Origin: a virus
IMG/VR virus record: IMGVR_UViG_3300046002_001035
Coordinates: 1 to 23,217 of that record
DNA length: 23,217 bases
Strand: one strand, 5' to 3'
Shown piece by piece: positions 7,544 through 9,733 of this stretch. Under the pieces are notes generated by a model. It saw only the letters and a list, made by a program, of their open reading frames with translations. It had not been told where the DNA came from and made no database searches. Each line of letters opens with the position of its first letter. The first letter of the stretch is position 1. The translations under genes were made by a program, and so were the position numbers.

Positions 7544-7916
7544 GAAGTATTAACTAAGTGATAACCCTTACTCTGTTTATTTAAATAATAGATACCCTAC
7601 CCTTATACCCACCCACCGTAGTAGTTGAGGATAAATCCTTTACGACAGACCTGTACCTTGTTAGGTTTATGGCAGGCGGCTCACCCCACCCGTAGATTTC
7701 CTAAATTACTAGCAGTCCTTGCAAGTAATAAAGATCAACACCTACAGTAAATGGTTTTACTAGATTTCTCTAGTCTGTCTATATCCTGTTCGATTTCTCT
7801 ACTGGGGCGTGCGGGTCACACGGGATAAAGCTGTATAACAAATGTATAACTGACCTGTTTTGGGTACGAGTGGTCACTCTATTAGCTGATGCGCCCTGAC
7901 AGTTATCTTGAGCAAT
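7544..7916. other. Non-coding region with several dyads and an 11-bp spaced repeat
   Basis: I see no supported gene here. It contains a perfect AT-rich palindrome TTATTTAAATAA (7577-7588), a hairpin at 7705-7729, the dyad ACTAGA-TTTC-TCTAGT (7759-7774), two copies of GATTTCTCTA or close to it (about 7763 and 7791), TGTATAAC twice with an 11-base period (7832-7839 and 7843-7850), and GAGTG-GT-CACTC (7868-7879). The density of symmetric sites suggests a control region, a small RNA locus or a replication/partition site, but none of these is demonstrated. Confidence 0.45.
7705..7729. repeat. Intergenic hairpin
   Basis: ATTACT and AGTAAT pair as six base pairs. After an A-A mismatch, GCA pairs with TGC around a five-base loop. 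The symmetric form means it could fold in RNA of either strand. There is no T-tract, so it is not a plain terminator. Confidence 0.45.
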
Positions 7917-8030
7917 AAAAAAGCCGCTTAAATCTGTATCTTGGTGAAGGAATTCCACTACCGGCTTCAAGGCGAAAGTGGAATCAAGATACAGACTTAA
8001 ACGGCTTAATTGTCCTTCACGACAACAATT
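7917..8030 (-). ncRNA. Structured RNA or long-stem terminator with a possible loop-bulge contact
   Basis: Arms of 23 bases at 8007-7985 and 7943-7921 pair fully in minus-strand RNA: the two positions that differ are G-U wobbles there, but C-A and A-C mismatches in plus-strand RNA. Inside is an 8-bp stem (7984-7977 with 7959-7952) around a 17-base loop, and an 8-base bulge UCCUUCAC (7951-7944). Six U residues follow (7922-7917). Just upstream, a UUGUC/GACAA hairpin (8025-8010) shows GUGAAG in its loop, complementary to the bulge. At minimum this is a terminator for the repressor transcript; the extra architecture suggests a stable RNA product. Confidence 0.5.
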
Positions 8031-8133
8031 TGATTATGTATCTGTCTTTCCAGATTGTCAAGCCCTGAAGCTAGGCTAGTGAAACACGACCCTTATCATT
8101 GATGAGTTTCTGCTTGCTAAAGGCTTAATAAGT

Positions 8134-8349
8134 CTAATGCAACTCAGGCCAGATTTGTTGCCAGTTGGGGATTTCTTTTCTTGACCATTTACCGTTTGAT
8201 TTCTTTTCAAGCTCGGCAGCTAACAACACTAACTTATCACCAGGCAAACCATTGTTGCGCCATTGCGATACAGCTGGCGGACTGACACGGCAGAGCTTGG
8301 CTACAGCAAATGTGCCACCTAATGTTTGGATGATTTCTGTTGTATTCAT
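8134..8349 (-). CDS. Cro/YdaS-like repressor
   Basis: A 71-residue protein with a helix-turn-helix at about residues 13-32 (TFAVAKLCRVSPPAVSQWRN) followed by NGLPGDKLVLLAAELEK, the pattern of Cro/YdaS-like phage regulators. It is divergent from the ERF operon, the classic Cro position, and likely controls early promoters on one or both sides. Candidate targets are the AACTCAA/TTGAGTT dyad in the divergent gap and the AGATA-N6-TATCT dyads. The charged C-terminus (KSNGKWSRKEIPNWQQIW) is not part of the DNA-binding core. No CI-like partner or integrase is visible, so lysogeny cannot be claimed. Confidence 0.75.
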   Translation of the reverse strand: MNTTEIIQTLGGTFAVAKLCRVSPPAVSQWRNNGLPGDKLVLLAAELEKKSNGKWSRKEIPNWQQIWPELH

Positions 8350-9631: not shown

Positions 9632-9733
9632 AGTAAAATATAACAAAGGCTACCCTTAGCGGGGGAAAAAATGATTCGTTACCATTCTGCCTTTGTTTTT
9701 CAGTAACGATTTCCACCGTAACGGGGTGCGATC
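9632..9733 (+). promoter_or_regulatory. Leader of the first homing endonuclease gene with promoter-like sequence and alternative hairpins
   Basis: AGTAAAATATAAC (9632-9644) looks like a -10 region. AACAAAGGC (9642-9650) and GCCTTTGTT (9689-9697) form a 9-bp stem followed by TTT, resembling a weak terminator with a 38-base loop. CGTTAC (9677-9682) can pair with GTAACG at 9703-9708 or at 9718-9723, the latter next to the GGGG ribosome binding site. A tiny ORF with its own GGGGG site (9671-9706, MIRYHSAFVFQ) spans the switch. Confidence 0.4.

Follow-up and report, generated by a model that had tools for sequence, protein, structure and literature searches.

A stretch of ~640 bases without a convincing gene, lying between the gene of a Cro-like repressor and a series of small minus-strand genes, raises the question of what is made from this part of the phage genome: the end of the repressor message, or a separate RNA. 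The virus record in which it lies, IMGVR_UViG_3300046002_001035, was analysed over its whole length of 23,217 bases (hereafter, the window); the presence of terminase, portal, endolysin, Erf and SSB genes marks it as a tailed phage. Part of the gap is occupied by a structured element, whose features are listed in Table 1.

A sequence-only reading of the locus had proposed a minus-strand RNA in which base pairing is under selection, and the fold of the region agrees with it. The minus strand of 7905-8035 folds with -51.9 kcal/mol (z = -7.8), a value that none of 200 dinucleotide shuffles equalled, and the plus strand of the same segment folds less well (-43.5, z = -6.2). The 23-bp fully paired stem described earlier is borne out as P2, an unbroken series of 23 pairs between 8007-7985 and 7943-7921. 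Two of its pairs, G-U in the minus-strand RNA, would turn into C-A and A-C on the plus strand, exactly as had been pointed out, and the run of six U at the end of the stem is also present. The 8-base bulge is UCCUUCAC (7951-7944). Its proposed complementarity to the loop GUGAAG of the hairpin just upstream proved to be longer than stated, comprising 8 nt (GUGAAGGA with UCCUUCAC), six of these pairs being supplied by the loop. Both 8-mers are unique within the window. The selection for pairing suggested by the fold is further supported by compensatory change in relatives and by an asymmetry of wobble pairs, both described below.

Table 1. Features of the structured element and its surroundings (positions in the window)
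Feature	Position	Strand	Basis or remark
Cro-like repressor gene (context only)	8134..8349	minus	Pfam P22_Cro; PHROG transcriptional repressor; upstream of the element
-35 hexamer TTGACA	8056..8061	minus	TTGACA/TTGGCA in many relatives
-10 hexamer CATAAT	8033..8038	minus	fixed offset in relatives
Predicted transcript, ~110 nt	7917..8026	minus	start from -10 spacing; end from stem and U tract
P1 hairpin	8009..8026	minus	GUUGUC 8026-8021, loop GUGAAG 8020-8015, GACAAU 8014-8009
Pseudoknot strand 1 (P1 loop GUGAAG)	8015..8020	minus	complementarity reaches 8013
P2 5' strand, 23 nt	7985..8007	minus	fold and covariation in relatives
P3 inner hairpin	7952..7984	minus	fold; length and sequence vary among relatives
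Pseudoknot strand 2, CUUCAC	7944..7949	minus	abuts P2 3' strand; 8-nt complementarity 7951-7944
P2 3' strand, 23 nt	7921..7943	minus	fold and covariation in relatives
U tract, six U, terminator-like end	7917..7922	minus	sequence; invariant T in relatives
Second, large structured RNA	7590..7902 (ends approximate)	minus	compensatory change in relatives; starts ~14 nt past the U tract

Relatives were collected in several ways. About 100 IMG/VR loci were gathered by way of the repressor and of a 90-residue protein that follows it; between phages with flanks of mostly 80-95% similarity, the element is very divergent in sequence and unchanged in architecture. A pattern scan of IMG/VR, relying mainly on the outer stem and the U tract and blind to the contact, returned 62 loci. 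The identical pattern applied to 84,980 bacterial and archaeal species (one genome per species) gave six matches; none of them has P1 and the contact, all were taken as chance, and a bacterial source of the element was rejected. In the contact-blind set, the P1 loop and the strand adjacent to P2 are perfectly complementary over 6 nt or more in 42 of 42 distinct viral elements, in 41 at exactly the expected position and in one shifted by a single base. No such complementarity is present in the six bacterial chance matches, and of 1566 combinations with partners exchanged between elements only 7 match. Among relatives the 6-base contact takes at least 17 different sequences, each of them Watson-Crick paired. 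The loop-bulge pseudoknot contact, formerly suggested as a possibility, is genuine: it is kept in all 42 distinct viral relatives, and homologues breaking the pairing, which had been named as one observation that would speak against it, did not appear among them.

An alignment of 33 distinct cores (A1, inner hairpin excluded) was assembled with use of the contact, and the unbiased test of the contact is the contact-blind set of 42 elements. Within the 33 cores all contact cells (100%) are Watson-Crick pairs; both sides have changed in 53 cells, no cell is broken or altered on one side only, and the covariation of the contact is 0.779 versus 0.195; the aligned sequences share ancestry, and the changed cells are not independent events. 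Over the whole structure, 95.6% of cells are paired, compared with 83.4% after shuffling and at most 47% when the structure is slid along the alignment, and 121 cells are changed on both sides versus 28.5 in shuffles. The P2 stem has 96.4% of its cells paired and 12 of 23 pairs changed on both sides, and the P1 helix 87.9% and three pairs, respectively. Columns 71-75, corresponding to the U tract, are invariant T. Invariant columns are located mainly at paired positions and in the U tract; unpaired parts vary, with few conserved bases among them. An RNA family with a covarying pseudoknot is well supported by these sequences.

The strand of the RNA could be deduced from P2, where 73 G-U wobble pairs on the minus strand stand against 5 A-C; the minus strand is therefore the RNA strand. 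An explanation at the level of DNA, such as a cruciform or an operator, is disfavoured by the same 73:5 asymmetry. The contact is free of wobble pairs and thus carries no strand information. When 1.78 Mb of the loci fetched were searched for the bare architecture without fixing the stem length, almost no unrelated matches were obtained. The structured element is real, beyond chance, and stronger than first claimed, since contact and stem are conserved with compensatory change and the architecture scan gave almost only family members.

The elements fall into two classes. In class 1, the contact strand is flush with the P2 3' strand. In class 2 (L005, L074, L197 and others), P2 is unrelated in sequence to that of class 1 and mostly 22-23 bp long, an extra hairpin separates the contact from the P2 3' strand, and the linkers are 9-12 nt long; the contact is kept in 12 of 12 members, which were found without use of its 3' strand. 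P2 is nearly always 22-23 bp in the architecture scan (20 to 23 after scan trimming in class 1), and the inner loops, of ~13-63 nt, differ by dozens of nucleotides while the length of P2 stays. The P1 loop occurs in two forms, with 8 nt (C-6-A) or with 6 nt and a closing C-G pair. When this closing pair is opened, both forms give a 6-bp pseudoknot stem with one C across the deep groove, and the classical rule for H-type pseudoknots accommodates a 6-bp stem with a single C spanning the deep groove. Among isolate phages and plasmids the only members are MW202674 (class 1) and MW202520 (class 2), both Manatee Spring entries. Both classes are represented on the minus strand of one contig (L177, class 1 at 101-188 and class 2 at 754-799), the two elements being ~570 bases apart. 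In two other loci (L076, L078), the element is replaced by a different terminator-ended RNA with a 12-bp GCCCUAAUAAGG stem, located between the repressor and the large RNA; no clear pseudoknot was seen by eye in this replacement.

The element is preceded by a predicted promoter, TTGACA-17-CATAAT (8061-8033, 11 of 12 matches), from whose -10 box the usual spacing would place the start at ~8026, the first base of P1. In 23 upstream contexts with <70% identity, the hexamer 18 bases before the pseudoknot strand reaches a mean of 4.22 of 6 matches to a -10 box, against 2.06 averaged over offsets. The fixed distance of the -10 box in these 23 unlike contexts, many of them without the repressor, points to an autonomous ~110-nt unit with its own predicted promoter, more than to the end of the repressor transcript. 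The earlier designation as a terminator of the repressor transcript is not sustained for the same reason; the element also occurs in phages without the Cro-like repressor, and its genomic contexts are varied. As in intrinsic terminators, the stem is followed directly by the U tract (23 bp and U6, with invariant T in 33 cores). A simple terminator scan did not list the element, because it permits loops of 3-8 nt only. Between the repressor stop and the promoter (8040-8130, minus strand), relatives carry additional hairpins whose arms vary jointly when inspected by eye (GAAAC/GTTTC; AGGTT-agctttag-ACCT; AGCCT/GGGCT; AGTTC/GAACT), and an inverted repeat was likewise seen inside the promoter spacer of relatives (ATCTggaaagacAGAT, CATCGgaaagaCGGTG, GCTTGgaaagaCAAGC).

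Directly behind the U tract lies either a structured RNA or a gene, neither of which was mentioned in the sequence-only reading. Most class 1 elements have a large covarying RNA within ~10-30 nt of the U tract; compensatory change was found in 21 of its 31 predicted pairs (12 diverse loci). In L065, this RNA is Rfam Betaproteobacteria-1 (RF02932), in the same place and on the same strand. The window's own large RNA (7590-7902) has no Rfam match, nor do the other large RNAs behind the U tract apart from that of L065, and in a few class 1 members, for example L147, no obvious structured RNA follows the element. In class 2, a ribosome-binding site and start codon are located 12-26 nt from the first T of the tract. 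No promoter was recognised, by eye, between the U tract and the downstream RNA or gene, so that transcription of what lies downstream most likely relies on read-through that starts at the element's promoter. The large RNA 7590-7902 is likely the output of such read-through, and the element probably governs the production of the downstream RNA or gene. It is chiefly this putative dependence that suggests a leader or attenuator. The large RNA of the window and those of L139, L141, L153, L164, L166, L238 and others show strong compensatory change and form a mosaic of exchangeable domains. In L015, L052 and L073 the element is separated from the 3' part of the large RNA by an inserted small gene, whose ribosome site comes right after the U tract.

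The element could represent a new family of phage leader RNAs, in which a pseudoknot braces an intrinsic terminator (attenuator) located close to the promoter; a probability of about 0.5 is assigned to this reading. It is built on the structure, its conservation, the promoter spacing and the downstream arrangement seen across the relatives, from which termination, read-through and gating by the contact could proceed as follows. RNA polymerase would start at the first base of P1, as the position of the -10 box suggests. P1 would fold during transcription, followed by the inner hairpin; the strand emerging after the latter would pair with the P1 loop to form an H-type pseudoknot, and the P2 3' strand would then zip into the 22-23-bp stem that ends at the U tract. 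Most transcripts would stop there and yield a stable RNA of ~110-150 nt, with its 5' end within a helix and the terminator as its 3' end. The remaining transcripts would read through into the large structured RNA (class 1) or the gene (class 2), the contact tuning the choice between stopping and reading through.

How the contact could exert such an effect was considered for class 1, in which the docked P1 and pseudoknot would strain the base of P2 or hold the terminator base open. In a rigid-helix search, the gap to be spanned was 48 A when all 23 bp of P2 are formed and 32 A at 19 bp, with four basal pairs open. With ideal straight helices assumed, the linkers are too short for the stack of P1 and contact to dock beside a fully closed 23-bp P2, and in this model the docked contact may keep the terminator base open in class 1. 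Steric exclusion as a general rule was rejected: it fits class 1 but fails for class 2, with its 9-12-nt linkers. No ligand pocket, alternative antiterminator pairing or leader peptide was found for the element. A more specific version, regarded as rather doubtful, is a two-part cassette in which the promoter starts at P1, the pseudoknot acts as a clasp that mechanically opens or closes the terminator base, and the large RNA is made on read-through only; according to it, the clasp sequence would be free to vary if both strands change jointly.

The next best reading, possible but on balance unlikely, is a stand-alone small RNA acting in trans. It would always end at the U tract and be stabilised by its 5'-terminal pseudoknot, its target would be a host or phage protein or RNA, and downstream sequences would be transcribed through incidental leakage. 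The element's own predicted promoter and its defined predicted 5' and 3' ends suit such a role, as do the varied genomic contexts and a U tract resembling that of Hfq-bound RNAs. However, few unpaired bases are conserved, and 7-mers complementary to a loop occur at 0.08 per kb in the phage to which that loop belongs versus 0.09 in other phages. Loop complements show no enrichment in the locus of the respective element or over the 450 nt that follow it (phage loci, partial contigs), which disfavours an antisense role within the phage. The class 2 genes, which start 12-26 nt after the tract begins and have no recognised promoter in the interval, suit a leader instead.

RNase III prefers roughly two helical turns, and P2 could accordingly be viewed as part of a module that serves the processing or stability of a single long RNA, in which the two-turn stem of 22-23 bp would be the RNase III substrate, the 5' pseudoknot would shield the end and the U tract would be of minor importance. 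A stem of 23 bp does exceed what termination needs and is near the preferred length, and this length is kept in two classes unrelated in sequence. Processing leaves the practically invariant position and length of the U tract unexplained, however, and RNase III does not need a flush contact; this role is considered improbable.

Still less credible is a role like that of HK022 put, an antitermination RNA that acts while nascent: the element would bind RNA polymerase and let it pass later terminators. Like put, the element would be a phage early-region leader RNA that folds while it is made and affects transcription (PMC9378689), and it is a structured RNA that lies next to a Cro-like gene, close to or at the predicted beginning of an early phage transcript. 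In contrast, put RNA consists of ~70 nt with two stem-loops, lacks a terminator of its own and antiterminates at a distance (PMC9378689), whereas the element has ~110 nt and a conserved U tract at its end; no motif common to both was seen, and an assignment to put was rejected on this difference in architecture. Finally, a simple Rho-independent terminator that ends the repressor transcript and has a functionless loop-bulge complementarity, for which the stem and U tract behind the repressor gene would speak, is next to untenable, its strict form being refuted by a contact kept in 42 of 42 elements with many compensatory changes, and the predicted promoter between repressor and element as well as the phages lacking this repressor also weighing against it.

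Compared with known systems, the preferred leader reading is closest to Rho-independent terminators and attenuators, which share the stem running directly into a U tract and, putatively, the placement between a promoter and a downstream RNA or gene. The element differs from them in its 22-23-bp stem, its inner hairpins and the pseudoknot to a 5' hairpin at the predicted +1, and from attenuators also in that no leader peptide, ligand or alternative antiterminator was found. The SAM-II metZ leader of Sinorhizobium is described as a pseudoknot riboswitch with a terminator that releases a small RNA (PMC9373788), and it is similar in that a leader pseudoknot is tied to termination able to yield a small RNA. 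The element is distinguished by the lack of a conserved ligand pocket, its variation falling nearly all in helices whose pairing is preserved, and by a contact that links the loop of the 5' hairpin with the terminator stem on its apical side. A riboswitch was rejected: the unpaired parts vary, and no conserved unpaired ligand core is present.

In the Pistol ribozyme, ~6 bp are formed between the hairpin loop of the 5' stem and an internal loop in the stem that follows. The likeness to the element is one of topology only, the element having a long P2 and a U tract; Pistol and other self-cleaving ribozymes were rejected, with no Rfam ribozyme match and no conserved catalytic nucleotides seen. 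Betaproteobacteria-1 RNA (RF02932) is the downstream neighbour in some members (L065) and not the element itself. Searches of Rfam 15 with the element, strict and lax, gave no score at or above a gathering threshold; the lax matches were at chance level, mostly to microRNA hairpin models whose gathering scores they missed by far. The earlier statement that it matches no known RNA family stands, no credible Rfam match having been obtained. No prior account of the motif was found in the literature on skipping-rope, Betaproteobacteria-1 RNA, structured phage RNAs and pseudoknot attenuators, the 224 motifs of Weinberg 2017 being outside the scope of that search. By these comparisons, the element would act like an attenuator or terminator, with features absent from all families compared.

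The element thus represents a structured RNA family not listed before, in phages that are known chiefly through metagenomes, and presents an exceptionally clean covarying pseudoknot joined to a terminator-like stem. If the leader reading is true, it would be an RNA switch ahead of phage genes and large structured RNAs, and its promoter, start and control element would offer a handle on the role of these large RNAs, including Betaproteobacteria-1. Elsewhere in the window, at 9643-9708 on the plus strand, an Rfam int-alpA RNA (RF02996, score above the gathering threshold) is located immediately before an HNH endonuclease gene.
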